This document shows, one piece after another, positions 43,790 through 62,863 of a stretch of 64,000 nt of DNA. Below the pieces are notes generated by a model. That model saw only the letters and a list, made by a program, of their open reading frames with translations. It did no database searches and was not told where the DNA came from. The stretch covers positions 62,001 to 126,000 of the forward strand of contig CAJBEZ010000033.1 of assembly GCA_903952205.1 (NCBI GenBank), in the 5' to 3' direction. Within the stretch, counting starts at the first letter, position 1; every line of letters starts with the position of its first letter. Origin of the DNA: an uncultured Desulfomonile sp. (GTDB lineage: Bacteria > Desulfobacterota > Desulfomonilia > Desulfomonilales > Desulfomonilaceae). The translations under genes and the position numbers were made by a program.

Positions 43790-44662
43790 CTAGTCGCATC
43801 GAACGACTCTTCCATTTGACAAGTATTTTCGTCTATTTAGAATAACCCATTTGAACCATAGACGAAAAATGTCCCACAAAGAAGCAATTATCGCGTTAAT
43901 TCGAGTACCTTTTGCTTCCCCCTGCGTTCGAGCAATGAAGTTTATAGCAACCTCTTTTATTGACATGCCATTCCAATAAGATTTGATGATACCTTCTGGA
44001 TTGACGAAAGAACTACGTGCCTCGAATTCAATTGATTGAATCCACTTAGTTGGGTAAAAAGTTACATTCTGATAATCGGAAACAGGCACTTGAAACAAGG
44101 CTCTTATTAGACAATAATTAATGACAGATACCAATGCCTTAGAAACAGTATCCGATCTTCGTGTCAGATGCTTGATACCAAACAACTGAAAAATAGCGGC
44201 GATTGGTTTAACTAGTTTACCTTGAACATTCACCGGTCGTCTACGTGCCCCCTGAACTATGTCATAGCTTTTAAGATGTTCCAGGAATTCTCTTAACTTT
44301 CCTATATCGTAACACCAATCAATAGTCTGCCAAAAAAGATATTCCTTTGACGCTAGCTGAATAGCTCGTCTTGACGATATTCCAACACCCATATTTCGTC
44401 CGTTGGGATAAATTTTGAGTCTAGGGTTGGTTCGTTGATATTCTTGGGCTATCTTCAGTGTGTTATCAGTGCTTCCGTCATCGATAAGCACAATCTCATA
44501 GTCTTGCACAGACATATCCATTAGAATAATCGCCCTGTCTAAGAATTCACCTATAATGGTTTGCTCGTTATAGGCCCAGCAGAGCAGCGAGACACTCTTG
44601 TCAAACTTTGGCAAGGATTCTATTGCCTCAGAATCACTAATTGGTGGAATGATGTAAGTCAA
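43790..44662 (-). CDS. Glycosyltransferase family 2
   Basis: A 290-residue GT-A enzyme: SVSLLCWAYNEQTIIGEFLD, EIVLIDDGSTDNTLKIAQEY and LKIYPNGRNMGVGISSRRAI are the GT2 start, and EYLFWQTIDWCYDIGKLREF replaces the usual DxD region. The tail (MSIKEVAINFIARTQGEAKG and SLWDIFRLWFKWVIL) resembles DPM1-like transferases that attach a sugar to polyprenyl phosphate, but has no transmembrane helices. It overlaps the following GT5-like gene by four bases (ATGA). IS256 sits 32 bp beyond its stop codon. Confidence 0.85.
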   Translation of the reverse strand: MTYIIPPISDSEAIESLPKFDKSVSLLCWAYNEQTIIGEFLDRAIILMDMSVQDYEIVLIDDGSTDNTLKIAQEYQRTNPRLKIYPNGRNMGVGISSRRAIQLASKEYLFWQTIDWCYDIGKLREFLEHLKSYDIVQGARRRPVNVQGKLVKPIAAIFQLFGIKHLTRRSDTVSKALVSVINYCLIRALFQVPVSDYQNVTFYPTKWIQSIEFEARSSFVNPEGIIKSYWNGMSIKEVAINFIARTQGEAKGTRINAIIASLWDIFRLWFKWVILNRRKYLSNGRVVRCD

Positions 44663-46212
44663 CGCATTATCTCTTTGGAGGGCTTATCGGGAAAATACAA
44701 TTTGGCTAGATACATATCGACAGTCTTTGATATACTGGAATCAAAATTCATTGCCCTGGAAACTATTTCTTGCCACAATTGATAGTTATTGAACCAAATA
44801 TCCATTGCAGTTGCTACCCGTTTCACGAAGTCCGCGGCGTCTGTGGGATCCTTCAATAGAAATCCCCATCCGTCTTTATGCTCGGTGACCGGTTTAACCG
44901 TATCAGGCAGGCCACCGACTGCGCTTGCCAGTGGTACGGCTCCAAATCGCATGCCTTCGAGCTGGCAAAGGCCGCACGGTTCCCAGACAGACGGCATTAA
45001 AAAAAGGTCGGAAGCAGCGTAATACAAGAAACGATCAATGAATATGCCTTCGTCGGCAAGAGACAAGTCTCTGTCATACGGCGAGAGAAACGCCAAATTG
45101 TACCGGTATCTCTTGGAGAGGGCAACGAGTTTTTTCCAGAGGTCTATGTCTGGATCATCATTGCCTGGTTCTGGCCACGCTCTAAGATATATTTGCGGCC
45201 GACGATTCAATTGCATGAGACCGTCCATAGCTCTCTCAATAAGACCAAAGTTTTTTTGATCACAAAATCTGTGGCCCATACTTATAAGAAAAGCAGAAGG
45301 ATCCAAGGGTAAACAAGCGGTAGCCTGAAAAATTTCTTTAGCTCGTCTCTTGTGCTCAAACACTCCAGATTGAGTCGGTGTTATGCATAATCCATTGTCG
45401 CGAAGCACAGGAATGCAACGCCAATCGACAAGATCATTATCAATTCCGTTCAATATACCAACAAGACGTCCCTGATCATACAATTCTCTGAACACTTTTT
45501 CCAATCCACCCCCATTGGGACGGACCTGAATTTCGCGGGCATAACTAGGGCTTACGGTGTGAACAATGTCCGCCGAATTAAGTCCGGAAAGCAGGAAATT
45601 GAATTCACCCTCGCAACTCGGTCTCAATGAATGAAAAATCTCGTGTGTATCCAAAACTTGTGAGCTGAAACGGCCTTGCTCTTCCAGCACGTCTACTGTA
45701 AGGACCAGTTGTGCTTTAGGTCTCCATTGGACACGGTTCAGTAGAGCTAATAACGGAGCGCTTTGCCAATGAAAAATGTGAGCTATTACTTTCTCAACGT
45801 TGTCGAATTCCCTTTCCTTAAGCCCATCTATGAGCATGAGAACCGAGTGACAAAAGTCCAACCATGAGCGACCACTCGTCTCTGTTCGCGAACCAACTCC
45901 TCCCTGCTTGATGTAGTCCCACAAACTGTCTCCGGGTAGGAAATAATAATGTATTCCTTTCTCGTCCTCTCCAACTCTGACCTCCTGGGTCCTGAGTTGT
46001 CCCTGAAAAACTCTGCGAATAGTAATCGGTTCCTTAAATCTTATCCCGCTATATTGTGAATCAAACAATGGAGCTATGACGATGATCTTGAATCCTAGTT
46101 TTGACAGTTCGGACAAAATTGATCGAATCAAATCGCCCATTCCAGTAATTTTGAAATACGGGGACAACTCTATCGTCACAAAAATCAAGAGCGAAGAGTC
46201 AATTGAATACAT
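44659..46212 (-). CDS. GT5/starch-synthase-like glycosyltransferase
   Basis: A 517-residue GT-B enzyme. The start LLIFVTIELSPYFKITGMGD is the glycogen/starch synthase type (the usual KTGGLGD reads KITGMGD). The C-terminal domain has SMGHRFCDQKNFGLIERAMD, DLFLMPSVWEPCGLCQLEGM and FGAVPLASAVGGLPDTVKPV, which match the ADP-glucose-binding half of GT5. In a surface-polysaccharide operon it could make an alpha-glucan-like segment or use another nucleotide sugar. It shares four-base overlaps with the GT2 gene, and ends close to the aminotransferase gene. Confidence 0.8.
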   Translation of the reverse strand: MYSIDSSLLIFVTIELSPYFKITGMGDLIRSILSELSKLGFKIIVIAPLFDSQYSGIRFKEPITIRRVFQGQLRTQEVRVGEDEKGIHYYFLPGDSLWDYIKQGGVGSRTETSGRSWLDFCHSVLMLIDGLKEREFDNVEKVIAHIFHWQSAPLLALLNRVQWRPKAQLVLTVDVLEEQGRFSSQVLDTHEIFHSLRPSCEGEFNFLLSGLNSADIVHTVSPSYAREIQVRPNGGGLEKVFRELYDQGRLVGILNGIDNDLVDWRCIPVLRDNGLCITPTQSGVFEHKRRAKEIFQATACLPLDPSAFLISMGHRFCDQKNFGLIERAMDGLMQLNRRPQIYLRAWPEPGNDDPDIDLWKKLVALSKRYRYNLAFLSPYDRDLSLADEGIFIDRFLYYAASDLFLMPSVWEPCGLCQLEGMRFGAVPLASAVGGLPDTVKPVTEHKDGWGFLLKDPTDAADFVKRVATAMDIWFNNYQLWQEIVSRAMNFDSSISKTVDMYLAKLYFPDKPSKEIMR

Positions 46213-46217
46213 GGGTT

Positions 46218-47351
46218 TTACCCAATCCTCTTTACCACTTTCTTAACTTTGTCAACCACGAAATCTATCTCGGTATCTTGCAAACCAGGATAAAGCGGCA
46301 GACTAATAGTCCTGCTACCTATCATTTCTGCCATGGGAAAGTCACCTTCTCTAGAGCCAAGCTTCTCTCTAAAAAGAGTATAAAGGTGCAGCGGTCTATA
46401 GTTTACTGCAACTCCGACCCCTTCATCCTGAAGGGCCCAAAGAATTATATCCCTCTTTTCATGATTAACCAGTATGGTGAACATGAGATGTGACTGTGTT
46501 ACTCCCCCTAACAGTTGTAACATTTCTAATCCGTCAACACTTGAAAAAGCTGCCCTATAATACAGCGATATTTGCTCTCTGCGTTGTCTCCATTGTTCTA
46601 TCATATCAATCTGGTCCATCAACAAGGCGGCTTGCAGATTGGACATGTTATATTTCCATCCTTCAACGTCAACATCATAATGTCGGTACAATTTTGTGTA
46701 TCTGTCAGCAGCATCGGTAGACATTCCGTGCAACCGCAGCTTTCTAAGCTTCGAGGCCAATTCACTGTCGTTCGTGGTCACTGCTCCACCTTCGCCGCAA
46801 GTGATGCTCTTTGTGGCGTAGAAGCTGAAACAAGCAGCGTCGGCCAGTTCGCCGACTCGTATTCCGTCGCGACTGCCTTCGAGGCAATGAGCAGCATCTT
46901 CAACTATTAGTAGCCCAGATTTTCTAGCTAGTTCGCTCAGCTTGATCATATCAATCATCTGACCGTAAAGGTGCACAGGGATGATAGCTTTGGTTCGAGG
47001 CGTAATAACAGCACCAATTCTTGACACGTCAATATTGCCGGTCTCTGGTTCAACGTCCACCATTACCGGCTGGGCTCCAACATGCATGATAGCGAGGCTT
47101 GTGGCCACGAAAGTCAACGGCGTTGTGATTACCTCATCGCCATGGCCGACACCCAGGGCTAAAAGTGAAAGATGAAGCGCCGCCGTAGCGCTTGTTAAAC
47201 CGACAGCGTGATTCTGATCCAAATATGACGCAAATTTATCCTCGAACAGACCGACTTCTTCGCCTGTGGTCAAAAAGATTGAATTCATGACCTTTTCAAA
47301 TCGTCTTAAATTAATCTCACCCAATTGATGACGAAAGAACTCTACCTTCAT
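46218..47351 (-). CDS. DegT/DnrJ/EryC1-type sugar aminotransferase
   Basis: A 377-residue PLP enzyme. I start at the ATG at 47349-47351, preceded by GGGGAAG, because an earlier in-frame region of 51 residues is unlike the family. Motifs: TTGEEVGLFEDKFASYL, GLTSATAALHLSLLALGVGH, VHLYGQMIDM, EDAAHCLEG and SFYATKSITCGEGGA with the PLP lysine. It overlaps the flippase-like gene by 35 bp. It is distinct from the PseC-like enzyme at 60696 and probably aminates another keto-sugar nucleotide in this locus. Confidence 0.92.
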   Translation of the reverse strand: MKVEFFRHQLGEINLRRFEKVMNSIFLTTGEEVGLFEDKFASYLDQNHAVGLTSATAALHLSLLALGVGHGDEVITTPLTFVATSLAIMHVGAQPVMVDVEPETGNIDVSRIGAVITPRTKAIIPVHLYGQMIDMIKLSELARKSGLLIVEDAAHCLEGSRDGIRVGELADAACFSFYATKSITCGEGGAVTTNDSELASKLRKLRLHGMSTDAADRYTKLYRHYDVDVEGWKYNMSNLQAALLMDQIDMIEQWRQRREQISLYYRAAFSSVDGLEMLQLLGGVTQSHLMFTILVNHEKRDIILWALQDEGVGVAVNYRPLHLYTLFREKLGSREGDFPMAEMIGSRTISLPLYPGLQDTEIDFVVDKVKKVVKRIG

Positions 47352-48360
47352 CTTCTTCCCCAATCCTGTTTTCCGACAAGTACAATACGGCGCCTGCCAA
47401 ACTGCTGACCGCTGCAACCATTCTATAGACCAACCACAATGAGGCTCCAAAGGCAAAATCCTGCGATGACCACACCAACCCAGCCCACCATTCTTGCCAT
47501 CCAATATTACCTGGCGAGAGGGGAATCATTCCGATTAAAAAAACCTGCAGGCCCAAAACAATTGTCTGGACGAAAGATATTTCGCCATTCATTGCCACAG
47601 AAACCATGTACAGGGCCGTGCAACCCACAAGGTTGATAACTAAAGATATTCCAATACAGGCAAATATAAGCCTCCAGTTAGTACCAAACTCCGAGAACTG
47701 CCTCAGTAAGTTAAGCAATAACCTGCCTATGAAAACTCTGCTGATAATATTTTCAAGAGATTTGAGCCGTATCTTACCGAATATTACAGTAAAAGCAAAA
47801 ATTGCTATCAAAGCTCCTGTAATTCCCAGCCCTCCCCACCCGATGTTACCTGGCCATATTAAGCCGAACGCCTGATAAAGAATCAGCCCTTGGGCGCAGA
47901 GGGCCAAGAGCGCCAGTCCTAGTAAACCTAAAAAACGATCATATAGTAACGTTCCGACAATCTCGGACAATTTGTTTCTGTTTGGTGTGGCAAGATAGTA
48001 GCCAACAACAATATCGCCACCGCCGGATGTCGGCAAGAAATTATTGTAAAAGAATCCTATCAGGACTGTTTTGGCGCAACGGCCAAACGGCAACATAACG
48101 CCACTGGTTCTTAATAGCAACCAAAGCCGAAAACTTCTAAATATTTGGATGCACAACACTAAAGCGCCGCAGAGAAAAATGAGTAAAAACGATTTGAAGT
48201 TCAGCAAATCTTTTAGTACAAAAACTGATATTTTTCCTGAATAGAACAAATAGAAGATGAGTCCAAAGGCCACTATTAATTTAAGACCAAACATCAATTT
48301 TGAGCTAACATTCTTGCTCTTCAAGGAAAACATTAATAAGTTTTGTGAATAATCTGTCAC
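47317..48360 (-). CDS. LPG-synthase-type (flippase-like) integral membrane protein
   Basis: A 347-residue protein with about eight hydrophobic helices. SFLLIFLCGALVLCIQIFRS, FFYNNFLPTSGGGDIVVGYY and YDRFLGLLGLALLALCAQGL match the transmembrane part of the lysylphosphatidylglycerol synthetase/AglD family, and VNLVGCTALYMVSVA and PLSPGNIGWQEWWAG are also typical. The family includes proteins proposed to flip lipids or lipid-linked sugars. It starts with a GTG whose bases overlap the stop of the radical SAM gene by four bases (GTGA). Confidence 0.85.
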   Translation of the reverse strand: MTDYSQNLLMFSLKSKNVSSKLMFGLKLIVAFGLIFYLFYSGKISVFVLKDLLNFKSFLLIFLCGALVLCIQIFRSFRLWLLLRTSGVMLPFGRCAKTVLIGFFYNNFLPTSGGGDIVVGYYLATPNRNKLSEIVGTLLYDRFLGLLGLALLALCAQGLILYQAFGLIWPGNIGWGGLGITGALIAIFAFTVIFGKIRLKSLENIISRVFIGRLLLNLLRQFSEFGTNWRLIFACIGISLVINLVGCTALYMVSVAMNGEISFVQTIVLGLQVFLIGMIPLSPGNIGWQEWWAGLVWSSQDFAFGASLWLVYRMVAAVSSLAGAVLYLSENRIGEEDEGRVLSSSIG

Positions 48361-49343
48361 AATGCTTCGTCTCTCCTTGATTTAGTCTTCGTGTGTTCCG
48401 CATCTGATATTATTTTCCAATAATTGTAGTTCCAAGATCGATATTGCCAGTCAGGACACGATAAACAAATGGGAATCTTGTGTCCTCGCCCAGAAAGGTG
48501 TTTCGCCCTAAAATCTTCAAACTCGGAACCTAGCCATATTTCCTTGATAGATTTTTCAAAGATATTTGCAAATTTGTGGTCGAAAGCGATGTCCTCGCCA
48601 CATAGCGTGACATCCCCTCTAGTATCTATGTTTAGACGCTCAAAAAGCCATGGGCAAGGGATACGCTCTTCCGGTGGAAGATATGGAGTCGGATCTCCGG
48701 AACAGTCCACATTGTATCCCCATGTCAAGAACTTCCTGATCTGGACCTTGTCAACAATATTTTGCCAATGTCTCTCGGCCATTTCCACATCCACCCCCTG
48801 CTGGTCAATGATACTTGCGATGATTCGGGTGCGTGATTTGAGTCTATCCCTTATAGCTACAGCCATATTAACATTTCTATTAACTTTTTTCCAATCCAGC
48901 CCACACCTTACTTGACCATAGGTTTCTTCATCGCCTGCATCAACACTAAATTCCAGATTGTCGACTTCCGACTCTATTAATGCTTCCAAATTCTCTTCGT
49001 CGAATATCGATCCATTAGTTATGAGTCCTATACGAGCCCCTTTTCTCTTGGCGTAAATCAGGAGATCCGTGGCCTTTGGATGAAGCATGGGTTCACCGCC
49101 GCCAGAAATTCTCAAATATGCGCTATATTTGGCACATTCGTCAGCGATTCTCTTGAAAACCTCTTCTGCCATGAACAGGGCGTCTTTATATCGATTTCTT
49201 ATCGTCGAATTATTGTAAGGGCAGTTGGGGCACTTGGCATTACATACGTATACAAACGAAAGGACAACCATGAGAGGAAATTCCTGAGCTCCTTCGCGCA
49301 TGGTATACTCTGATTTGGTGTGTAAAAAAACATCTTTCGCCAA
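48357..49343 (-). CDS. Radical SAM protein with SPASM-like C-terminus
   Basis: A 328-residue protein. Cysteines in CNAKCPNC (C34, C38, C41) bind the iron-sulfur cluster used to cleave SAM. RISGGGEPMLHPKATDLL and SVDAGDEETYGQVR complete the barrel. The C-terminal IPCPWLFERLNIDTRGDVTL, CGEDIAF and ICLSCPDWQY contain the extra cysteines of SPASM proteins. The start is TTG, chosen because an AGGAG lies 6-7 bases upstream. The substrate is unknown. A second, related radical SAM gene lies nearby with the same CPDWQ ending. Confidence 0.88.
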   Translation of the reverse strand: MAKDVFLHTKSEYTMREGAQEFPLMVVLSFVYVCNAKCPNCPYNNSTIRNRYKDALFMAEEVFKRIADECAKYSAYLRISGGGEPMLHPKATDLLIYAKRKGARIGLITNGSIFDEENLEALIESEVDNLEFSVDAGDEETYGQVRCGLDWKKVNRNVNMAVAIRDRLKSRTRIIASIIDQQGVDVEMAERHWQNIVDKVQIRKFLTWGYNVDCSGDPTPYLPPEERIPCPWLFERLNIDTRGDVTLCGEDIAFDHKFANIFEKSIKEIWLGSEFEDFRAKHLSGRGHKIPICLSCPDWQYRSWNYNYWKIISDAEHTKTKSRRDEAL

Positions 49344-49355
49344 TGTTTTCTCCTG

Positions 49356-50087
49356 TTAGGTAAAGGTCAAGGATGAATGGTCTGCCGGCATGTCACTGTT
49401 GCCGACCACATAATATTTGGCCGATGGGCCGCAGTTCATTAGCACATCTATCGCCGACAGGTGTGCCACAAAATCTCCGTATGGTTGCGGATAAATCCGA
49501 CAACGATAATCTTGAAAGACAACCTTGATTTCAGCTTCGTCAAACATCTCAAGGCGCAGGTAATCCCGGCCCGCTGCACCCTCATAGAAAATGTCAGCGC
49601 CGAGAGCCTTACAAATTTCCACAAGGCGACGACTGGGATCATCATCATGGCAGCCAAGTTGGCTGGAAAATATAATATTGCTCTTGACGTCTAGCCAGGT
49701 TGCCAGCATTTTAATCAATTCCATATTGAGATCCATGAGTTTTACCCATCTACATTTGAGAACCCTTTCCAATTCATAAAAATAATCACTGAAGAAAGGC
49801 GTTTTCCCATAAAACTGTTTTATAGAGCCGCAATGCCTCTTACCCCAATTGGACTGATTTGTATCTATGACGACATCGCTGATTATTGGCTTGTTTTTCC
49901 CGGTAGTTCTAACCGGAACTGTCAACCATACAGGCCCATTAGAGCCTTTGATTCTGTTTCGGTTCCGCCACCCATGTTTATCATACTGCACATCATCATA
50001 GATTACAAAAACCTCTGAACGAAGCTGCTGCTCGAAAAAGCCTAGCCAAGGCAAGTACCCCGGCTGCAATATACCTACGGTTTTCAT
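49356..50087 (-). CDS. WbqC-family protein
   Basis: A 243-residue protein with GILQPGYLPWLGFFEQQLRS, FVIYDDVQYDKHGWRNRNRI and WLTVPVRTTGKNKPIISDVV, matching the WbqC family seen in O-antigen clusters with viosamine or similar amino sugars. No catalytic motif is recognised for this family here. It lies between two radical SAM genes and next to a formyltransferase gene, so a role in amino-sugar acyl modification is likely but not proven. Confidence 0.85.
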   Translation of the reverse strand: MKTVGILQPGYLPWLGFFEQQLRSEVFVIYDDVQYDKHGWRNRNRIKGSNGPVWLTVPVRTTGKNKPIISDVVIDTNQSNWGKRHCGSIKQFYGKTPFFSDYFYELERVLKCRWVKLMDLNMELIKMLATWLDVKSNIIFSSQLGCHDDDPSRRLVEICKALGADIFYEGAAGRDYLRLEMFDEAEIKVVFQDYRCRIYPQPYGDFVAHLSAIDVLMNCGPSAKYYVVGNSDMPADHSSLTFT

Positions 50088-50127
50088 TTTAGTCTTTTAC
50101 CAACGCTTCAGTATTCAATTTTACCGA

Positions 50128-51141
50128 TCATTGATCATGATGCCAAAAAGGTCTCGACCAGTCCAATGCTTGCTTGTCTTCCTCAGATACATATTTTGCC
50201 CCTACCACCTGCCAGTCCGGGCAGCCCTTACAGACCTCTGGAACATTTTCCCAATCGTGACGAAGATGGCGTTCGCGCAATCCAGCACGATGTGACGTCT
50301 GCCATATTTCTTTAATTGATAGCTTCTCAACATTACCAGCTATGAATCGGCCTTCGTAATCTACTGGGCAGGCAACCAAGTTTCCGTCCTGGTGTATGGC
50401 CGTAGAGTTTACCCCCCACGGGCAAGGGATTCGAAATTCATTTCCCAAATTTAACTCCCGAGCTTTTATCGTTCCAGTAGATGTCCAGGTAAGTTTCTGT
50501 CGAATTTTGATTTCAGCTTTCCTTGCCATCCAGAATTCCTTGAATTGTTCCACCTCAGTCTCATTTTCTTCCATCACAGAGAATTGGCATTGAATTACAG
50601 GATACATCAACCCCAATTCCTCCTTCCGGCGAAGCAGTTCTTCTACTGCCGCATATATCTTGTCTCGTTTTCCGCCCACCCGTATTTTTTCGAAAGTTTC
50701 TTTTGTAAATCCATCCAGGCTTAGTATGAAGCGCTTCAACGGCGATGAAAGGACTTGGTCAATGACTCCTTTTCGACCTAGTAAAGAGCCGTTAGAATTC
50801 AACACTATGTTGTTGCATCCTACCTCCTCTGCGTATTTGAGCCATTTCCACAAAGTGTCTCCCAACAATAAGGCTTCACCATAAAATGTTGGCCATATCT
50901 CACAATCTGGCGATTCCAACGCTATCTCTTCAACAATTCTTTTAAATAGAGACTCCGCCATGTGGGCTCTTGGCCGCTTCATCTCTTTGTGCGAGCAATG
51001 TAGGCATTTCATATTGCAACGAGATGTGGTTTCAATAACCAATTGCTTTGGGAATGGGATATCGCTAAGGCCCTTTTCAATATTTTCTAGGGCTATTAGT
51101 CTAGCCTCACTTGGTTGATATTTATTACCCATATCCTTCAT
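50128..51141 (-). CDS. Radical SAM protein with SPASM-like C-terminus
   Basis: A 337-residue protein from the ATG at 51139-51141, which overlaps the stop of the formyltransferase gene (ATGA) and has AAGGGAG upstream. TTSRCNMKCLHCSHKEM gives the iron-sulfur cysteines C42, C46, C49; WPTFYGEALLLGDTLWKWLK and FILSLDGFTKETFEKIRVG belong to the barrel. The C-terminus has IPCPWGVNSTAIHQDGNLVA, CPVDYEGRF and CKGCPDWQVV, the SPASM cysteines. Its overall layout matches the other radical SAM protein at 48357-49343, so the two are paralogues acting in one pathway. Confidence 0.88.
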   Translation of the reverse strand: MKDMGNKYQPSEARLIALENIEKGLSDIPFPKQLVIETTSRCNMKCLHCSHKEMKRPRAHMAESLFKRIVEEIALESPDCEIWPTFYGEALLLGDTLWKWLKYAEEVGCNNIVLNSNGSLLGRKGVIDQVLSSPLKRFILSLDGFTKETFEKIRVGGKRDKIYAAVEELLRRKEELGLMYPVIQCQFSVMEENETEVEQFKEFWMARKAEIKIRQKLTWTSTGTIKARELNLGNEFRIPCPWGVNSTAIHQDGNLVACPVDYEGRFIAGNVEKLSIKEIWQTSHRAGLRERHLRHDWENVPEVCKGCPDWQVVGAKYVSEEDKQALDWSRPFWHHDQ

Positions 51142-51968
51142 GGCAAAATTACTCCCTTTTCTAAAATCCGATCGGGAACAAGCCACACTACGCCATCAAT
51201 CGTAGCAATTAGACATCCTTCGGATGAACTGTAGAGAATCTCACCATTCGTTTCAGACGCTAGGTAATTTAAAAATGAGACTTCGGTTCCATCTGGAAGG
51301 CTTGAAAATGCAGGATAATCATGTCCACCGGCACGGACTAAATCGAGAATTTTAGCAGATGACATACTCCAGCAAATTTTACCATCTACTGGCTTTCTTC
51401 TGGTCCAGTAACTAGAAGACTCTAAACAATAATAGCCAGGTTTATGCAAAGCTCCACGACGCAGATCGTCACATAGCTCGACTAGCATGCTAGCAGCCAT
51501 GCCAGCGAGTTCTGATGCAATGTCAGGGTATTTTCGTTCAACCCCAAATCGCTTGGCTCTAAACATTATTGCTTCACCTTCATCAATCTCGTCAGTCATT
51601 GTATGCACAGTTACCCCGAGTACTCGCTCCCCTTGACTCACCGCCCACTGTATTGCATGTCTCCCACGATAGAATGGGAGCAGAGAAGGATGAGCATTGA
51701 AAGCTCTGCCAGAGAATGATTCCAAGATTCCTTTAGAGACTTTACGCCCGTATCCGCTACACATTAAAACATTGCCGGAGCCTATACAATTTTTTAGGTT
51801 GTAGGTTCTCAAATCCGGGATATCCGGAGCGGAACCTGTAGATTCATCCCATACTATGCCGACAACAATGTCTCTGTGTGACTCGTGTAGTCGACGGGCC
51901 GCTATTTGGCCAGCCACTCCCCCTCCAAAAAATGTTATTCTGATATCATTATCTGAATCAGTCATCAT
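51138..51968 (-). CDS. Formyltransferase (WbkC/VioF-like sugar N-formyltransferase)
   Basis: A 276-residue protein with the formyltransferase core. Asn91, His93 (FNAHPSLLPFYRGRH) and Asp129 (TMTDEIDEG) form the catalytic triad, with FGGGVAGQIAARRL as the start and VLGVTVHTMTD before the Asp. The SLLPxYRG motif is present, as in WbkC, VioF and methionyl-tRNA formyltransferase; the protein lacks the C-terminal tRNA-binding domain of the latter. It probably uses N10-formyl-tetrahydrofolate to formylate the amine of a sugar nucleotide. It overlaps both neighbours by four bases. Confidence 0.88.
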   Translation of the reverse strand: MMTDSDNDIRITFFGGGVAGQIAARRLHESHRDIVVGIVWDESTGSAPDIPDLRTYNLKNCIGSGNVLMCSGYGRKVSKGILESFSGRAFNAHPSLLPFYRGRHAIQWAVSQGERVLGVTVHTMTDEIDEGEAIMFRAKRFGVERKYPDIASELAGMAASMLVELCDDLRRGALHKPGYYCLESSSYWTRRKPVDGKICWSMSSAKILDLVRAGGHDYPAFSSLPDGTEVSFLNYLASETNGEILYSSSEGCLIATIDGVVWLVPDRILEKGVILP

Positions 51969-53851
51969 CCAATCACCGTTTCATACCATATTTGAAAGCA
52001 TAGCAGGTTCCAGATTTTTGCTGAAAAATCTGTTGCTCCAGAATAGTGAGCCTGCAAAAGCTCCGCAACCCTGGGTTCATTCAGAAATCCATGCCTGCTA
52101 AGACGCGTTTCAGAAAGAGTTCCTACTACCCAAGGTTTAAGTGAACTCTTCATCCATGAGTAGTTCGGTTGAACAAAACCTTCTTTTGGTCGATCAACCA
52201 GTTCTTGTGGCAGAAGATCCTGAACAGCCAATCTGTGAACATACTTGATTGCTGCCCCACGTATTTTCATGCTTCCGGGAAGGCGATTCACATATTCTAT
52301 AATCCGGTAATCCAAGAAAGGGCAACGCACCTCTATTGAATGTGCCATGGACAACCGATCCACAAAAGGTAAGACTTGATTGGGCAACAGTTCTTTCTGG
52401 TCTATCTCCAACGCCGCATTGAGTGGATCAAGGGCAGACGTCTCCTCTAACATCCCCCTGTAAAAAGTTGCCGTGTTTGCATTTACAGTTGCGGCAAGAA
52501 AATCCTTTGTCAGCAAACGGTGCTTTTCGATTTCATCAAATACGGCGAGACGCATTCTCCAAATGGCTTGATCAGGGTTGGCCATTAATTTAAGGAATTG
52601 GTACTGGTCTGGGGTATGGAATGGCTCCAATGAGACTATTTCGGCCTGGCTAAGTTTACTATTTCCTCTCGACTGAATTAGACGCAAGTAACGATCTATA
52701 GGCAAAGCAAGTCTGTGGGCCAAATAGCTGCCAAAAAGTTCGTCGGCTCCGTCACCGGAAAGCGCCACCTTTACATGACTTCGAATGAGGGTGCTTAGAA
52801 AAAAAGTTGAAATGGTACCAGAAAAAGGTTCGTCAAACGACCGCATCACGTCGGGTAAACGATCAGCAAACTCATCATAGCTCAAAATATATTCGTAATG
52901 TTCTGTTCCAAGCTGCTTGGACATCATTCTTGAATATTTGATATCCATAGCTTTACCCAAAAACTGGCCATGAGGCGCTTCGGCATAACCGAGACAAAAC
53001 GTCTTTAACGGTTGGCTCTGGTATCTAGCCATAAGCGAAACCACAGAGCTGGAGTCTATACCTCCCGACAAATATGCCCCATAGGGCACATCACACTGCA
53101 TTCGAAGGCGAACAGCATCCTCAAACAGTTCTCGGATCTCACCAGCGGCTTCTTCGGCGGTAATACCTTCAATAGGGTGACTGAAATCGAGACCCCAATA
53201 CTTCTCTATTTTGATTTCACCATTCTCCCAAACCAAATAATGTCCAGGCAACAACTGCTTTACATTGAGATAGACGGTAGCAGGAGCGCTAATATTTTTT
53301 AGACTGAAATAGTGGTACAAAGCTCCATAGTCAAGCTCCCTGGACACCCTGTCATGGGCGACTACAGCCTTAATTTCTGAACCAAAAACAATGTCTTGTC
53401 CGATTCTGGACCAGTAAAGGGGCTTCTTGCCTATCCGATCACGGTACAAGACTAATCTGTTTCGACTTGAGTCCCAGATGGCGACCCCAAACATCCCGTT
53501 TGCACCTGATTTCGCGGGCCACAAATCTCCGTATTCCTCATATAAATGCACTATTGTTTCTGTATCGCTGTGATGAGTAGAGAATTTATGGCCTCTTTTT
53601 ACCAAAGATTCTCGCAGTTCAACATGATTGTAAATTTCACCGTTGAGCACAACCCAAATGCTTTTGTCCTCATTGGAAACAGGCTGTTTTCCAGTTTCAA
53701 CATCCACGATTGCAAGTCGACGCATACCTAAACGTACTATCGCGTCAATGCGATAGCCCTCATCATCTGGCCCACGGTGTGTCAGTTTCCGATTCATCCG
53801 CTGCAGGAGCTTCAGTGTTCCGCTACCCGTGAATCCGCAAATCCCGCACAT
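51965..53851 (-). CDS. asnB: Glutamine-dependent asparagine synthase-like amidotransferase
   Basis: A 628-residue AsnB-type protein. The N-terminal MCGICGFTG exposes Cys2 after Met removal for glutaminase activity; RGPDDEGYRI and VLNGEIYNHVELRE are glutamine-binding segments. The synthetase domain has AYLSGGIDSSSVVSLMARYQ (the ATP PP-loop) and VALSGDGADELFGSYLAHR. In glycan clusters such enzymes amidate the carboxylate of uronic or aminouronic acids. It is preceded by AAGGGAG and overlaps the formyltransferase by four bases. The 194 bp upstream, up to pseI, carry no gene I can support. Confidence 0.9.
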   Translation of the reverse strand: MCGICGFTGSGTLKLLQRMNRKLTHRGPDDEGYRIDAIVRLGMRRLAIVDVETGKQPVSNEDKSIWVVLNGEIYNHVELRESLVKRGHKFSTHHSDTETIVHLYEEYGDLWPAKSGANGMFGVAIWDSSRNRLVLYRDRIGKKPLYWSRIGQDIVFGSEIKAVVAHDRVSRELDYGALYHYFSLKNISAPATVYLNVKQLLPGHYLVWENGEIKIEKYWGLDFSHPIEGITAEEAAGEIRELFEDAVRLRMQCDVPYGAYLSGGIDSSSVVSLMARYQSQPLKTFCLGYAEAPHGQFLGKAMDIKYSRMMSKQLGTEHYEYILSYDEFADRLPDVMRSFDEPFSGTISTFFLSTLIRSHVKVALSGDGADELFGSYLAHRLALPIDRYLRLIQSRGNSKLSQAEIVSLEPFHTPDQYQFLKLMANPDQAIWRMRLAVFDEIEKHRLLTKDFLAATVNANTATFYRGMLEETSALDPLNAALEIDQKELLPNQVLPFVDRLSMAHSIEVRCPFLDYRIIEYVNRLPGSMKIRGAAIKYVHRLAVQDLLPQELVDRPKEGFVQPNYSWMKSSLKPWVVGTLSETRLSRHGFLNEPRVAELLQAHYSGATDFSAKIWNLLCFQIWYETVIG

Positions 53852-54045: not shown

Positions 54046-55092
54046 CTATCGCCAGCACATCTGCCATTCCATCGGTGTCCCTTTCCTCACATCACGGTTG
54101 ATGCGCTTACCCATCAACATCTCATAATATTTTGGCGCAAGCCCGTAGCCTGGGCGGATTGCTCTCAGATTATCTTTGGTCAACATATCACCAGCCTTCA
54201 TGTCCTCAGTAATGTACAAAGACCGCCGAAATACTAGCGAGTCTTTTTCAGAGTTAGTGGGGCCATAGCTAACCCATCCTAGGGCTTGCCAGGCTCGTTC
54301 AGACTCATCGACTAAACACCTCATCTCGTCTGGCTCTAAAGAAAATGCGCTGTCCACTCCACCATCGGCACGGCTCAATGTAAAGTGTTTTTCGATAACC
54401 GTGGCCCCCAATGATACAGCCGCTATAGCAGCGCCAACGCCCGCAGTGTGATCGGAGAGCCCTACCTCACAATTGAAAAGTTCGCGCATATGCGGGATGG
54501 TGCGTAGATTTGAATCTTCCGGAGACGCCGGATAATTACTCGTACATTTTAGAAGTATCAAGTCATCGCAGCCATTCGCTCGGGCTGCTTGGACAGTCTC
54601 ATCCAACTCTGCGATGTTAGCCATACCGGTGGAGATAATTAACGGCTTTCCGGTGGCTGCGACCCGTTTAATAAGGGGAATATCAGTATTCTCAAACGAG
54701 GCTATTTTATAGCATGGGGCATCAAGTGATTCCAGAAAATCGACCGCTGTCTCATCAAATGGAGTGCTAAAACAAACTAACCCCAATTCTCTTGCCCGAT
54801 CCATAATTGGCTTGTGCCATTCCCAAGGAGTATAGGCTTGCTGATATAAGCTGTACAAGGTATTACCATGCCACAACGAATTCGGATCATCGATAAAAAA
54901 TTCCCTCTCATCGAGGTCTAGTGTCATAGTGTAAGCAGTGTAAGTTTGCAACTTTAGTGCGTGGGCCCCGGATTTAACCGCAGCTTCAACAATCTCAAGC
55001 GCTCTGGCCAGCGACTGGTTGTGGTTGCCGGACATTTCGGCGATGATGAAAGGTCTACAATTAAGCCCAATTTCAAATCCGTCTATTCTCAA
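54046..55092 (-). CDS. pseI: Pseudaminic acid synthase
   Basis: A 348-residue NeuB-family enzyme. It condenses phosphoenolpyruvate with 2,4-diacetamido-2,4,6-trideoxy-L-altrose (or a variant) to form pseudaminic acid. FIIAEMSGNHNQSLARALEI, AHALKLQTYTAYTM, VCFSTPFDETAVDF, YKIASFENTDIPLI and EVGLSDHTAGVGAA are family motifs, and the C-terminal SAF-type domain is seen in DMLTKDNLRAIRPGYG and RINRDVRKGTPM. The start is TTG with GAGG seven bases upstream. The PseI rather than NeuB assignment rests on overall motif pattern and on the neighbouring pseB, pseC and pseG. Confidence 0.92.
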   Translation of the reverse strand: MRIDGFEIGLNCRPFIIAEMSGNHNQSLARALEIVEAAVKSGAHALKLQTYTAYTMTLDLDEREFFIDDPNSLWHGNTLYSLYQQAYTPWEWHKPIMDRARELGLVCFSTPFDETAVDFLESLDAPCYKIASFENTDIPLIKRVAATGKPLIISTGMANIAELDETVQAARANGCDDLILLKCTSNYPASPEDSNLRTIPHMRELFNCEVGLSDHTAGVGAAIAAVSLGATVIEKHFTLSRADGGVDSAFSLEPDEMRCLVDESERAWQALGWVSYGPTNSEKDSLVFRRSLYITEDMKAGDMLTKDNLRAIRPGYGLAPKYYEMLMGKRINRDVRKGTPMEWQMCWR

Positions 55093-55183
55093 TAGTCAAC
55101 CTCACACTGGAACCTCGGCGATTAAAGGAGCAATCGACTGTTTTTATCGGAGGTCTAAGTGGCCGCAGCAACGCTTATTTCGA

Positions 55184-55978
55184 TCATGTTAAGTTCCCCC
55201 AAATCCAAAGACGTGTCTGGCCCAGATCGAGAGCAGCAAATTCCCTTAAGTGGCTAATCTCAAGCGCTAATCGATTTACGGGGGCATTGTATTGAGGTTC
55301 CAATCCCTCCTGCTTTGCCAACCATGCGTTAACAACTCTACTAAGAAAGTAGTAAGCCGAAGTAAAATCCAACTCTGCCAATTTTCTTGCAAAATCAACT
55401 TCATCCAGTTCCTTGCGGCTAAGATATCTATTGTGCCATGGCATATGGATGACAGGAAGATCTAATTTGATGCGCAACGCATTGAGGTTGTCTAGCCCTT
55501 CTTTTAGGTTCTCACACATGAGATAAACCCCTCCTGGATTAAGCAGCCCCACTAGATCACGGATGGCGCATTTCTGTTCATGCCAAGAGGCCAGGTTGAT
55601 CAGAACTCTTTCCGTTATGACGACGTCGTAGCGTTCCACGATCGAAGCGATATGACGAACATCCTGAGTTCTGAAATTAATGATCGATTCTTCTATCCCA
55701 AGTCGTTGTTGCTCTATTTGAGCTTGAGCTATCATTTCAGGTGAATAATCCAAAGCCGTTACCTTAGCTGATCGATGTCTTGCCAAATAGAAAGCGGTCA
55801 ATCCGTTCCCGCAACCTACATCCAGAACTGATTGTCCGATCTTAATGTGATTTGCGATTTCGTTCATTTCTAGTTCTTTTGCCAGAAGGTCATTCGTACC
55901 GGCTAGATCTCTCATACTAGCTCGTTCGTTCCAGAAGTTCAGCACATCAACTTCTCGATTACCTGTTTGCTTTTTCAT
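55184..55978 (-). CDS. SAM-dependent class I methyltransferase in the pse operon
   Basis: A 264-residue methyltransferase: QSVLDVGCGNGLTAFYLARH (motif I, near residue 50), VTALDYSPEMIAQAQIEQQR (motif II) and YDVVITERVLINLASWHEQK (motif IV), then LLNPGGVYLMCENLKEG. It lies between pseG and pseI with short gaps, so it may methylate a nonulosonic acid or its precursor. A role outside the pathway cannot be excluded. Confidence 0.82.
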   Translation of the reverse strand: MKKQTGNREVDVLNFWNERASMRDLAGTNDLLAKELEMNEIANHIKIGQSVLDVGCGNGLTAFYLARHRSAKVTALDYSPEMIAQAQIEQQRLGIEESIINFRTQDVRHIASIVERYDVVITERVLINLASWHEQKCAIRDLVGLLNPGGVYLMCENLKEGLDNLNALRIKLDLPVIHMPWHNRYLSRKELDEVDFARKLAELDFTSAYYFLSRVVNAWLAKQEGLEPQYNAPVNRLALEISHLREFAALDLGQTRLWIWGNLT

Positions 55979-55983
55979 GCCAA

Positions 55984-57075
55984 TTAAAGCCTCACGTTTG
56001 GATGATAGAAAATCGCGGATGTTCTAGAGGTACCTAAACCATCAACCAAAGCCAATCCATTTTCGATGAATTCACATGTGCTTCGCAACAATACTATTCC
56101 CAAGATACTCAAATAATTTTCTGGGCACAATTCCCGGGAATTTCCCATGAGAATTATGCGTCTTTCTTGCGCTAGTTTCCTAGTAGACTCAGCCTGATTA
56201 TCAGCTATAATCGTTACCACTGCGGGCAATCCCAAACAACACCTTTCCCAAGACGCAGTTCCTCCTGCCCCTATCGCCAAATCTGCGGCTGCCATCAATT
56301 CAGCCATATTAGATATTTGCTGGTGGAAAGTAACATTGTTCATGCCCCGACAAATGGCTTCAATTTTTTGGCCGTTGGGGTTGTTGCTACCGACGACAAC
56401 ATCCACAGCTATGTCTGGTCGCCTTAACATTTCCAGAGCTTCCAGAGCCTTTTCTGTTTCTCCTGTAGGGTCAACTCCTCCAAAAAAGACCAGTATTCGC
56501 CGAATTATTCCGTCCCTCCCTCGTAACGTTTCTCTAGCTCTACGGAATTCCGGCCGTAACAATGCGAATCTTGGTCCTAATAATTTTCTACACTGTTGAG
56601 GAACCAGTTCTTTATAAGTGTTTTCCAGATCATCCAGCAGATTCTGATTTAACAAAACATCACAGTCATGAGGGCGATTAGCAAGGTCATCTATGACAAA
56701 GATCTTGTCGACATGTCCCTTGAGTCCCTTTTCCCATGACTCATCCAATCCGTAATGATCCACAACAAGCCAATCAGGTTTAAAATCACCTAACGCTTCT
56801 ATGGTCTGTTCCGCGTCTTCAGATTGTTCGACCCCTAACCACGCTGAATAGTCAGGCTTATCAGGCTGAACAATATTCAAAGAATCGGGAGGAGGCAACA
56901 CAGTGACGGAGTAACAGTCTGCCCTAAGTAGGAGAACCAAATTGCCCGGATGATCCCTGCAAATAAAGCACACTTCTGAGCCTCGTTTACGCAGTTCGTC
57001 AGCGAGCGTTTTGCAACGCATGACGTGGCCGGAACCGATTAGAAGAGAAGCGTCAGTGCGGATGGCGACTTTCAT
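55984..57075 (-). CDS. pseG: UDP-2,4-diacetamido-2,4,6-trideoxy-L-altropyranose hydrolase
   Basis: A 363-residue GT-B-fold hydrolase that removes UDP from the trideoxy sugar nucleotide in pseudaminic acid synthesis. The start AIRTDASLLIGSGHVMRCKT is the PseG signature (the His in GSGHVMR is catalytic), followed by CFICRDHPGNLV, LVVDHYGLDESWEKGL, FFGGVDPTGETEKAL and LAIGAGGTASWERCCLGLPA. It starts three bases after the stop of the class III aminotransferase gene, within the same operon. Confidence 0.93.
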   Translation of the reverse strand: MKVAIRTDASLLIGSGHVMRCKTLADELRKRGSEVCFICRDHPGNLVLLLRADCYSVTVLPPPDSLNIVQPDKPDYSAWLGVEQSEDAEQTIEALGDFKPDWLVVDHYGLDESWEKGLKGHVDKIFVIDDLANRPHDCDVLLNQNLLDDLENTYKELVPQQCRKLLGPRFALLRPEFRRARETLRGRDGIIRRILVFFGGVDPTGETEKALEALEMLRRPDIAVDVVVGSNNPNGQKIEAICRGMNNVTFHQQISNMAELMAAADLAIGAGGTASWERCCLGLPAVVTIIADNQAESTRKLAQERRIILMGNSRELCPENYLSILGIVLLRSTCEFIENGLALVDGLGTSRTSAIFYHPNVRL

Positions 57076-57078
57076 GGA

Positions 57079-58368
57079 TCATCTGACCTTGAACAGAGGA
57101 ACTAAGGGTTCACACTTCAGATGTTCTTTCAAGGTTCCGTTGTCAATCGAGCCCTTTATCAATTGAAACACTTCTCCATAGCTTCTTAGAAGGGTTTCGA
57201 TATCACTGTCATTGTGAGCATAACTAAGGTTGTGTGTTCCTATGGTATAAACGCCCCTTTCGAACATTTCCTGCATGAACAGGGTCTTGATCTCCCATGC
57301 TGAATAAGGAGAGAAATCTTTGAATAACAAGAACGACCACGTAGGATGACCACTTATGTTTAGAACCTGTTCCAATTCATTGTCACTGATAATCCGATTT
57401 ACGCTATCTATGATCTTCTGGCCTTGTGCTTTGAGTGTGGCGATCACGGGTTCCTGGCGTAACTTCGTCAATACTGCCTTGGCCGCCGCTAGCGACAAGG
57501 TTTCCCCACCGAAAGTACCGGAGAAAAAGATTTTATCAATAACATCCATGTATTGAGTTTTACCCACCAGAGCTGACAGCGGATACCCGTTAGCCATACC
57601 CTTGCCGAATGTAGCAATGTCAGGGGTAACGCCAAATTCTTCCTGAGCGCCGCCTTTCGAATATCGAAAACCAGTGATGGTTTCATCAAAAATTAAAAGG
57701 GCCCCGTGTTGCTGTGTGATATCTCTAACCTTTTCAAGAAACCCATCTTGCGGGTATGCCACGTTCATAGGTTCAAGAATGACAGCGGCAAATTCTCCAC
57801 GGTGTTTTTCAAGGACACTGGCCAAAGAATCTATATCATTATAATTAAAAACATGAGTAAGCTCTTTTACTGCCTTGGGTACGCCGAGATCTCGTGTGGT
57901 GCTACCAATATACCAGTCCTGCCATCCGTGGTAGCCACATACCGCTACACGATCACGTCCCGTATGGGCGCGAGCCACTCGAATTGCGCCAGACGTGGCA
58001 TCTGTGCCATTCTTTGCAAAACGGACCTTTTGGGCGCAGGGGATCATTTCCACGAGTAACTCCGCAACTTCCATTTCCAGTTTGTGAGGTAAAGAAAAGG
58101 TTACGCCGTTTTCCATTTGCTCGCGTACAGCCCTGTCAACGTCTGGATCACAGTAACCCAGAGTCACACAGGCTAGCCCGTTGACAAAATCTATGTATTC
58201 ATTCCCATCTACATCCCAGAAATGGCTGCCCTTGGCATGATCCACGAAATACGGTGACACACCAAAAGGGAGTTGAGTTTTACTCTTGCTAAAGGTTTGC
58301 GAGCCCAATGGTATGGTTTTAAGGGCACGTTCAAGCAATTCTTCTGATATTTTATATCGCATTGACAT
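57079..58368 (-). CDS. Class III aminotransferase (glutamate-1-semialdehyde aminomutase-like)
   Basis: A 429-residue PLP enzyme. KGSHFWDVDGNEYIDFVNGL, RFAKNGTDATSGAIRVARAH and LLIFDETITGFRYSKGGAQ are family motifs; ATFGKGMANGYPLSALVGK holds the PLP lysine. Enzymes of this type occur in nonulosonic acid and spore-coat clusters and act on small keto compounds or side chains. It has no part in the standard PseB-C-H-G-I-F pathway, so it may modify the product. The start overlaps the stop of the cytidylyltransferase gene by one base (TAATG). Confidence 0.88.
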   Translation of the reverse strand: MSMRYKISEELLERALKTIPLGSQTFSKSKTQLPFGVSPYFVDHAKGSHFWDVDGNEYIDFVNGLACVTLGYCDPDVDRAVREQMENGVTFSLPHKLEMEVAELLVEMIPCAQKVRFAKNGTDATSGAIRVARAHTGRDRVAVCGYHGWQDWYIGSTTRDLGVPKAVKELTHVFNYNDIDSLASVLEKHRGEFAAVILEPMNVAYPQDGFLEKVRDITQQHGALLIFDETITGFRYSKGGAQEEFGVTPDIATFGKGMANGYPLSALVGKTQYMDVIDKIFFSGTFGGETLSLAAAKAVLTKLRQEPVIATLKAQGQKIIDSVNRIISDNELEQVLNISGHPTWSFLLFKDFSPYSAWEIKTLFMQEMFERGVYTIGTHNLSYAHNDSDIETLLRSYGEVFQLIKGSIDNGTLKEHLKCEPLVPLFKVR

Positions 58369-59818: not shown

Positions 59819-60695
59819 CTGGAAGGATCGACAACCTTTTCATCGTTGATTGCGTATGATTCGAGTTCTGGAAGGCTGCTAGGTGATTTTTCCGCAATTT
59901 TAAGAATTTGTGTGAGTTGCCCAAGAGTTTCACAACCAACGATGATCTTGTCGATATATGGTTGATTAAGACAATAGCTGAGGCAGCCATCCAGCGGGCT
60001 CAGTCCAGACTTACTAAGTTCATTATGCAATTTCGCCTGACGCATGCGGATAGAATCAAAATAGTCGGGCATATTCTCTGGGCTCATGAAAATCAGTCCT
60101 TGTAAGAATGCGCTGCGAGCATGGGTTTCGATGCCGGCCATTTGCAATTTTTCTAACAACCCTGTTTGTGCAAAGCGTTGATCGTATATGTTGTATGGAA
60201 ATTGGACTATATCTATCTCGTAGCGACTCATAATGTCATCAAGTTGTTGCGGATGATATACGGAAACACCAATCTTTTCAACGCTCCCGCAGGCTTTGAA
60301 TTCCTCAAGCACAGCCCACAAACGTTCGCCTCCGTCTGATAAAAGATTGTCAACATTATGTATTAACATTCCATAAACTCGGCCCGTTTGCATTCGTTTC
60401 AGTGACTCATCAAATGCGCTGGAAACTAATGCGACATCTTCTTTCGATATACTAGAACCGCGGATAGGAATTGTCTTGGTGACGACATTAAACCCTAGGC
60501 TAGATGCTCGTTCCTCTCCTAAAATCTCTTCGGCTTCACCATAAGAGCAGGCTGTATCAATGATTGAGATTCCTCTTTGATAAGCGCAGGATAACATTTC
60601 GGATATTTCCTCGCGATTTGGCTGCCCATTCCGATTGGCGATGCCGTAAAGCATTCCCCACTGCGCTGTACCAAGTCCTATCTTTTGACAAAGAC

Positions 60696-60699: not shown

Positions 60700-62863
<2,164 letters not shown>

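Follow-up and report, generated by a model that had tools for sequence, protein, structure and literature searches.

A candidate amino-sugar tailoring module with two BtrN-like radical SAM proteins and a WbqC protein in an uncultured Desulfomonile sp.

A block of four genes in an uncultured Desulfomonile sp. may encode the tailoring steps in the synthesis of an unusual amino sugar that is N-acylated, linked to a lipid carrier and bound for the cell surface. We hold this reading, in which we infer the substrates, the amide step, the order of the steps and the type of radical SAM reaction, as a serious but tentative one. The first-pass annotation had proposed that the encoded proteins could jointly modify a sugar, or the acyl group on it, by radical chemistry. 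The shared pathway is supported by conserved gene context, and the BtrN-type architecture of the radical SAM pair suggests a radical oxidation, but WbqC is better read as a sugar-amine acylase than as part of the radical chemistry.

Operon layout and the radical SAM pair

Within the window, that is, the whole stretch of 64,000 nucleotides analysed, the four genes lie on the minus strand at 48357-51968, as first annotated. The formyltransferase gene (51968-51138) precedes the first radical SAM gene, rSAM1 (listed open reading frame 51186-50128), and WbqC (50087-49356) is flanked by rSAM1 and by the second one, rSAM2 (49343-48357). These genes belong to the front part of an operon of nine, which runs on the minus strand from AsnB to a GT2 glycosyltransferase (53851-43790) with gaps or overlaps of -49 to +40 bp when start codons are taken as listed; the remaining five genes encode AsnB, a flippase, a DegT aminotransferase and a pair of glycosyltransferases. 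The ATG at 51141, which forms an ATGA overlap with the formyltransferase stop, is more likely to be the rSAM1 start than the listed GTG at 51186. The features are as follows.

54046..62860, minus strand: pseudaminic-acid operon, upstream neighbour outside the module (TIGR03586, TIGR03590, TIGR03588 and TIGR03589 above cut-off)
51965..53851, minus strand: AsnB-type glutamine amidotransferase (PF00733, 1e-92; TIGR01536; motifs)
51138..51968, minus strand: formyltransferase (PF00551/PF02911; Asn91-His93-Asp129 triad; PDB match ArnA)
50128..51141, minus strand: rSAM1, BtrN-type twitch radical SAM enzyme (Pfam; BtrN best by profile and fold)
49356..50087, minus strand: WbqC family protein, predicted HUP fold (PF08889, 2e-71; model; PIG-L adjacency)
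48357..49343, minus strand: rSAM2, second radical SAM/twitch enzyme (Pfam; BtrN best by profile)
47317..48360, minus strand: flippase-like membrane protein, LPG_synthase_TM (PF03706, 1e-28; TIGR00374 above cut-off)
46218..47351, minus strand: DegT-family sugar aminotransferase (PF01041, 8.5e-115)
44659..46212, minus strand: GT5/GT4-type glycosyltransferase (PF08323, PF00534)
43790..44662, minus strand: GT2 glycosyltransferase, candidate polyprenyl-phosphate glycosyltransferase (PF00535)

The motifs initially read in both radical SAM proteins are present, namely CxxxCxxC (57-64 in rSAM1, 34-41 in rSAM2), IPCPW (at 253 and 228) and, about 30 residues before the C-terminus, CPDWQ (at 322 and 296), and the two proteins are indeed homologous, with 28% of residues identical in an alignment of 294 residues (E 1e-27). 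Both have Pfam Radical_SAM and SPASM matches, PF04055 scoring 42.9 bits for rSAM1 and 64.1 bits for rSAM2 against a cut-off of 29.5. The earlier SPASM label is imprecise, as each protein has only four C-terminal cysteines, with BtrN-type twitch spacing, and both lack the seven-cysteine motif for two auxiliary clusters that characterizes a full SPASM domain (PMC6231123). Numbered from the GTG at 51186, the rSAM1 cysteines are Cys57/61/64 and Cys255, 273, 319 and 322, and those of rSAM2 are Cys34/38/41 and Cys230, 248, 293 and 296. We defined a BtrN-type twitch by four cysteines fully ligating one auxiliary cluster, arranged as C-x17-C and C-x2-C, and found this cysteine spacing in nearly all relatives from both rSAM clades. 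Judged by sequence, rSAM1 and rSAM2 therefore end in a twitch domain with four cysteines, as in the dehydrogenase BtrN, and not in a full SPASM domain. In profile searches of the PDB, both proteins match BtrN best, and rSAM1 matches nothing else, with the alignment in register over the twitch; BtrN is also the top match of the predicted rSAM1 fold (Z 21.9 at 2.5 Å rmsd).

BtrN (PDB 4m7s/4m7t), the 2-deoxy-scyllo-inosamine dehydrogenase of butirosin, acts on an amino cyclitol and shares with the pair the radical SAM core and the twitch. However, its identity to rSAM1 is about 19% in structural alignment and, unlike BtrN, the module has two paralogues, placed in a glycan operon with WbqC. Because of this low identity and different context, rSAM1 or rSAM2 is unlikely to be BtrN itself, the DOIA dehydrogenase that performs a two-electron oxidation of 2-DOIA. 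All NCBIfam radical SAM equivalogs scored far below cut-off, and therefore none was assigned; for the reaction type, similarity in SPASM/twitch sequence is a poor predictor (PMC6231123). In the tree, each of the two proteins belongs to a supported clade of its own (100/100 for that of rSAM2), and members of both clades co-occur in distant loci, which rules out a recent duplication into close paralogues.

Predicted fold and gene neighbours of WbqC

The WbqC protein (243 residues) matches PF08889 with 240.6 bits (cut-off 21.3, E 2e-71). Its structure model (pLDDT 84.9, pTM 0.84) aligns best with BshC (PDB 4wbd; Z 13.2, rmsd 3.3, 222 of 243 residues), followed by class I LysRS (Z 10.9) and then GluRS, PPAT (Z about 7.0) and PanC (6.6); on this predicted model, WbqC has a HUP, class I aaRS-like fold. 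A plain Foldseek search yielded nothing significant, its top rows being metal-binding proteins with very poor superposition, which we set aside in favour of the structural alignments above. At the sequence level, profile comparison did not relate WbqC to BshC (hhalign E 0.15 and 0.36), the Pfam search gave no match to the BshC family PF10079, and a sequence search of the PDB returned nothing for WbqC. The canonical HIGH histidines, which class I aaRS and PanC have at the start of helix 1, are absent, and the motif conserved across 50 WbqC sequences is QPxxxPWxGxF. Conserved WbqC residues include Q8, D31, R43, N44, Y199, Q201 and D214, candidates for lining the HUP pocket. A search for an E. 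coli relative with Proteus wbqC DNA gave no match. Our literature search found no functional study of WbqC and, for WbqC together with radical SAM proteins, only an expression table with a WbqC-DegT gene pair of Bacteroides thetaiotaomicron.

WbqC was present in 28 of the 148 genomes sampled from the phylum; the control genomes that had it were those of Caulobacter vibrioides and a Bacteroides species. Its gene tends to adjoin those of PIG-L deacetylases and DegT aminotransferases: a PIG-L gene lies directly beside 11 of the 33 wbqC genes surveyed, versus 0.026 expected. WbqC is likewise found within 8 kb of BtrN-like radical SAM genes in 10 of 17 cases (0.11 expected), and one locus, L086, shows the run DegT, PIG-L, WbqC, rSAM, formyltransferase, rSAM. 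The Desulfomonile operon itself has no PIG-L gene. PIG-L is the family to which BshB and MshB are taken to belong, and by analogy the WbqC-PIG-L adjacency recalls the BshB/BshC couple. BshB deacetylates GlcNAc-malate and BshC is the presumed, or putative, cysteine ligase working on an amino sugar in bacillithiol synthesis, its reaction not having been shown in vitro as of a 2015 review (PMC4360819). WbqC differs from BshC in being less than half as long (243 versus 540 residues in the 4wbd chain) and in its context, surface glycans instead of thiols. A second parallel is MshC, which adenylates cysteine and then joins it to the amine of glucosamine (PMC2922099). LysRS and GluRS come next to BshC in fold and MshC couples an amino acid to a sugar amine, but WbqC, unlike these class I aaRS-like ligases, has no HIGH histidines and is too short for an anticodon-binding domain.

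Since its predicted fold is BshC/class I aaRS-like and its neighbours are PIG-L and DegT, we propose that WbqC acylates a sugar amine, probably with an amino acid; substrate and chemistry are what we infer here. We consider it unlikely that WbqC is, instead of a BshC-like ATP-dependent ligase, a PPAT/PanC-like enzyme, nucleotidyl- or acyl-adenylate-forming, or a user of aminoacyl-tRNA. PPAT and PanC do align with the model, and a compact single-domain protein without HIGH histidines resembles the cyclodipeptide synthases, HUP enzymes that have lost HIGH and use aminoacyl-tRNA (PMC2922099). Yet the Z of BshC, aligned over most of the protein, is clearly above those of PPAT and PanC, and the PIG-L neighbourhood is compatible with an amine acceptor.

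Recurrence of the gene set and proposed pathway

The neighbourhood survey indicates that the block is not accidental, since the gene set recurs in distant genomes. Selection by rSAM1 alone picked 7 other genomes among 394, six with WbqC within 6 kb and the seventh with a formyltransferase. Of 395 genomes of the phylum, 3 have rSAM2, and all of these also have rSAM1, WbqC and AsnB. The set is accompanied by a dehydratase, DegT and GT2 in loci L012, L013, L031, L035 and L039/L042, except that L013 has no GT2 match and the truncated L031 locus no DegT. AsnB copies are 46-64% identical in L012, L013, L031, L035 and L039, DegT copies 48-57% in L012, L013, L035 and L039, and GT2 copies, beside an SDR gene, 55-69% in L031, L035 and L039. 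The flippase-like protein has a relative in L035. A formyltransferase homologue (45% identical) occupies the same position in L012, and several modules that are complete in other respects (L013, L035, L039) lack the gene. A scan of viral contigs with rSAM1 gave no match; those with WbqC and rSAM2 found module-bearing contigs, which are probably bacterial fragments.

The accessory enzymes retain their signatures. The formyltransferase has the N91, H93, D129 catalytic triad of N10-formyl-THF-dependent formyltransferases and the motifs NAHPS and DEGEAI, and its PDB relatives are ArnA (best) and PseJ. AsnB keeps the MCGI N-terminus and the SGGIDSS ATP motif, and scores 433 bits for TIGR01536 (cut-off 267) and 459 for TIGR03108, the XrtA/PEP-CTERM amidotransferase model with WbpS/WbqG kin, below its cut-off of 816.9. 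DegT is nearest in the PDB to QdtB, ArnB and perosamine synthetase; it differs from the PseC encoded in the neighbouring operon and scores below cut-off for the PseC model. A dedicated 4,6-dehydratase gene is missing from the Desulfomonile operon, the closest in the genome being 39% identical.

Full modules carry a 4,6-dehydratase, so their probable product is an NDP-4-amino-sugar destined for a lipid carrier. An RmlB-like 4,6-dehydratase, encoded in the other loci and here perhaps supplied by the genome's own rmlB, would act with DegT to give an NDP-4-amino-(4,6-)dideoxy sugar. WbqC, acting as a compact class I aaRS/BshC-type enzyme, would then form an amide on the sugar amine, most likely with an amino acid. 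The formyltransferase would cap an amine, of the sugar or of the amino acid, and AsnB would amidate a carboxylate. The 5'-deoxyadenosyl radical of rSAM1/rSAM2 would abstract a hydrogen, with an electron passing to the auxiliary cluster, so that the sugar ring or the acyl group would lose two electrons or would undergo epimerisation or a lyase step driven by oxidation. Finally, GT2 would load the sugar onto polyprenyl phosphate and the flippase would move it.

The formyltransferase and WbqC could, with low probability, serve the neighbouring pseudaminic-acid operon, replacing PseH in the N-acylation at the 4-amino stage, with no separate sugar being made. That operon encodes PseI, a methyltransferase, PseG, a class III aminotransferase, a cytidylyltransferase, another methyltransferase, an aldo/keto reductase, PseC and PseB, with PseB, PseC, PseG and PseI all above cut-off. 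This idea draws on the genome-wide search, which gave no PseH above cut-off, on PseJ among the formyltransferase relatives, and on a Mariluticola plasmid with the run PseB-PseC-PseF-PIG-L-PseG-PseI-formyltransferase-WbqC. However, the L012, L013, L035 and L039 blocks have their own dehydratase and DegT, and mostly GT2, with no Pse gene matched alongside, and the Desulfomonile block lies in one operon with a DegT, a flippase and a GT2 of its own, separated by a 194 bp gap from the PseI side of the other.

It is rather improbable that the radical SAM pair, acting like DesII, deaminates or rearranges an NDP-4-amino-4,6-dideoxy sugar without an acyl group, WbqC working on a different sugar. The DesII substrate is the kind of sugar made by a dehydratase with DegT, DesII is among the close folds of rSAM1 (Z 19.5, 272 aligned, 4.1 Å rmsd), and a radical SAM gene directly adjoins DegT in L013, L035 and L039 and in Lawsonia, Smac51 and Solidesulfovibrio plasmids. 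Against this, BtrN is closer in both sequence and fold, the four twitch cysteines are conserved in nearly all relatives, and every surveyed genome that has rSAM2 also has WbqC. Glycan loci are mosaic, gene order varies from locus to locus and the close relatives searched lack the module, but an accidental neighbourhood in a variable glycan locus is extremely unlikely, being ruled out at the level of co-occurrence by the rSAM1, rSAM2 and WbqC surveys, with co-occurrence in unrelated genomes far above chance, and disfavoured by the operon overlaps.

Related systems and significance

The proposed N-acylated sugar pathway shares its aminotransferase, formyltransferase, glycosyltransferase and flippase logic with the ArnA/ArnB/ArnC pathway to L-Ara4N, in which the glycosyltransferase acts on polyprenyl phosphate. 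The latter differs in having no WbqC, AsnB or radical SAM protein, and a decarboxylase instead of a dehydratase. The P. gingivalis Wbp/Vim system, as presented in the excerpted text of PMC7468200, likewise involves a surface amino sugar with aminoacyl (seryl/glycyl) amides, a putative deacetylase (VimE) and AsnB-like amidation (WbpS), but its aminoacyl step is attributed there to the FemAB/GNAT-like VimA, and that excerpt describes no radical SAM enzymes.

Antibiotic sugars are a familiar setting for radical SAM enzymes, which are little described in bacterial surface glycans; the module offers a defined operon for studying one in the latter context. The useful new lead is WbqC, a widespread protein for which the predicted BshC-like fold and strong PIG-L adjacency provide a specific, testable hypothesis where no settled function existed. 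Speculatively, WbqC could represent a large, previously unassigned BshC-like family that acylates surface-sugar amines arising from PIG-L or DegT, with amino acids or other acyl groups, and the twitch radical SAM pair found here could oxidise such an aminoacyl sugar to an undescribed glycan building block. If true, the acylation hypothesis would account for many glycan loci together.

The WbqC operon and its surroundings in the window

Four adjacent genes encode a formyltransferase, two radical SAM proteins (rSAM1 and rSAM2) and a WbqC protein, at the positions and in the block reported by the first-pass annotation. A separate pseudaminic-acid operon lies upstream of the AsnB operon to which they belong, 194 bp away.

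51968-51138, minus strand, formyltransferase (Pfam Formyl_trans_N/C)
51186-50128, minus strand, rSAM1 (Pfam Radical_SAM and SPASM)
50087-49356, minus strand, WbqC (Pfam WbqC)
49343-48357, minus strand, rSAM2 (Pfam Radical_SAM and SPASM)
54046-62860, minus strand, pseudaminic-acid operon, with an extra aldo/keto reductase, a class III aminotransferase and two methyltransferases

The AsnB operon (53851-43790) reads AsnB-formyltransferase-rSAM1-WbqC-rSAM2-flippase-DegT-GT5-GT2, with intergenic spacing of -49 to +40 bp for the listed start codons; moving the rSAM1 start to the ATG at 51141 turns the -49 into an ATGA overlap. The formyltransferase carries the triad N91/H93/D129. The operon contains no 4,6-dehydratase; genome-wide, the best match shares 39% identity and is located on the same contig. 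Since a dehydratase adjoins this GT2 gene in three compared loci (L031, L035 and L039) and is missing here, a Mutator-family (IS256-type) transposase (42480-43718, minus strand), 71 bp past the GT2 gene, may mark its loss or a rearrangement. Past the transposase lies an 811-aa protein (39859-42294, minus strand), hydrophobic by eye, for which a Pfam search gave no match; in L035, the comparable position is occupied by a PMT-type glycosyltransferase.

In the neighbouring operon, PseB, PseC, PseG and PseI all score above curated cut-offs. A genome-wide search found no PseH above cut-off, which means that some other enzyme must supply the N4-acyl group.

Recurrence of the module

An accidental grouping of these genes, raised as a possibility in the first-pass annotation, does not agree with their distribution, as they co-occur beyond chance in the surveyed genomes and contigs. 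An rSAM1 scan covering a single genome for each species found two close loci, one in a Desulfarculus MAG (L012; AsnB-formyltransferase-rSAM1-rSAM2-WbqC-[dehydratase]-DegT) and one in a MAG labelled Marinimicrobia (L013; DegT-rSAM1-rSAM2-AsnB, WbqC and dehydratase nearby). When genomes of the phylum were selected by rSAM1 only, 7 of 394 others were positive; WbqC lies within 6 kb of rSAM1 in six, and in the seventh a formyltransferase is found at a distance of 0.8 kb. rSAM2 is found in only 3/395 genomes, each time in a locus that also holds rSAM1, WbqC and AsnB. Among 28 WbqC-bearing genomes, 10 of the 17 genes for BtrN-like radical SAM proteins are no more than 8 kb from a wbqC gene, against 0.11 expected, a count mildly biased by the few sequences found via WbqC in the profile.

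Whole or partial modules also occur on IMG/VR contigs classed as viral (L039/L042, DegT-rSAM1-AsnB-rSAM2-WbqC-dehydratase-GT2; L038, rSAM2-WbqC-dehydratase-DegT; and L041), which may be misclassified bacterial DNA. Consistent with a complete pathway, the L035 cluster additionally encodes a nucleotidyltransferase along with a PMT-type glycosyltransferase. The copy in genome G079 (L031, 2446-6550) has an additional radical SAM protein and a metallophosphoesterase, as well as a PylC-like ATP-grasp protein, which is a second candidate for forming the amide. Plasmids of Lawsonia intracellularis (L019, 8986-14740) and of a cockroach deltaproteobacterium (L017, 8947-13907) carry a twitch-type radical SAM gene with DegT, methyltransferase and AsnB genes, without WbqC nearby.

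The radical SAM pair

As noticed in the first-pass annotation, rSAM1 and rSAM2 are paralogues (28% identical, E 1e-27) that share CxxxCxxC, IPCPW and CPDWQ. Its SPASM label has to be corrected: each C-terminal domain has exactly four cysteines (C-x17-C...C-x2-C), a pattern kept in nearly all relatives and corresponding to a twitch domain, not to the seven-cysteine SPASM (PMC6231123). In a PDB profile search, rSAM1 matched only BtrN (2-deoxy-scyllo-inosamine dehydrogenase) and rSAM2 matched it best, with the twitch aligned in register. BtrN is also the best fold match of the predicted rSAM1 model (pLDDT 80; Z 21.9, 2.5 A, 233 residues), followed by SPASM peptide enzymes (Z about 20) and DesII and BlsE (19-20). 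Because BtrN performs a two-electron oxidation in which the fully ligated auxiliary cluster is the likely electron acceptor (PMC9012708), oxidation would be our first guess for the pair, bearing in mind the warning that sequence similarity predicts function poorly in this subfamily (PMC6231123). In the tree, rSAM2 forms one clade (100/100), the window rSAM1 groups with its L012 and L013 counterparts (100/100), and one genome has both the window-type rSAM1 and a second rSAM1 subtype; the two are old paralogues travelling together.

WbqC and the proposed pathway

A sequence search found no solved structural relative of WbqC, and a literature search, with subscription papers mostly outside its reach, returned no functional study. 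Structure prediction gave a confident model (pLDDT 84.9, pTM 0.84). Plain Foldseek gave no significant match; a structural second look placed BshC, the putative cysteine ligase of bacillithiol synthesis, on top (4wbd; Z 13.2, 3.3 A, 222/243 residues), then class I LysRS (Z 10.9), GluRS (about 8), and PPAT and PanC (near 7). The predicted fold is the HUP type found in class I aminoacyl-tRNA synthetases; the loop past strand 1 has a conserved QPxxxPWxGxF, without the HIGH histidines. Profile comparison of 50 WbqC with 4, later 7, BshC sequences detected no relation, so it is from structure only that WbqC looks related to BshC.

The gene neighbours point in a similar direction. A PIG-L deacetylase gene directly adjoins 11 of 33 wbqC genes (0.026 expected), and DegT aminotransferases are common neighbours. 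Mycobacterium branderi also has WbqC-PIG-L, and in Mariluticola a formyltransferase-WbqC pair sits inside a Pse cluster that includes a PIG-L gene. During bacillithiol synthesis, BshB removes the acetyl group from an N-acetyl amino sugar, and BshC presumably ligates cysteine onto the amine (PMC4360819), a step whose equivalent MshC performs by adenylation (PMC2922099). By analogy, WbqC beside PIG-L looks like BshB/BshC-type logic on surface sugars. L086 (6282-12488; consecutive genes for DegT, PIG-L, WbqC, rSAM, formyltransferase, rSAM) joins the PIG-L and radical SAM contexts and embodies the idea of the window block in a second arrangement; it comes from a genome of another family, and its radical SAM proteins are more distant. 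A Streptomyces vietnamensis plasmid (L067, 2450-8542) carries consecutive genes for two radical SAM/SPASM proteins, a flavoprotein resembling UDP-galactopyranose mutase, WbqC, DegT and a nucleotidyltransferase, possibly a natural-product version.

From the operon, its families, motifs and predicted folds, we infer the following substrates, reactions and step order. Dehydratase and DegT would yield an NDP-4-amino-deoxy sugar, on whose amine WbqC would form an amide, probably with an amino acid. The formyltransferase would cap an amine, AsnB would amidate a carboxylate, and the two twitch enzymes would carry out an oxidation on the sugar or on its acyl group, the lipid-linked product being handled by GT2 and the flippase. 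Surface sugars bearing amino acids are real: PMC7468200 describes uronic acids carrying 2-N-seryl and 2-N-glycyl groups in P. gingivalis and T. forsythia, attributes the seryl/glycyl step to VimA after deacetylation by VimE, and has the uronamide of the Wbp/Vim pathway made by the AsnB-like WbpS. Among known systems, BtrN, BshB/BshC and the Wbp/Vim and ArnABC pathways come nearest, but the module is a member of none: its parts are known and their combination is new.
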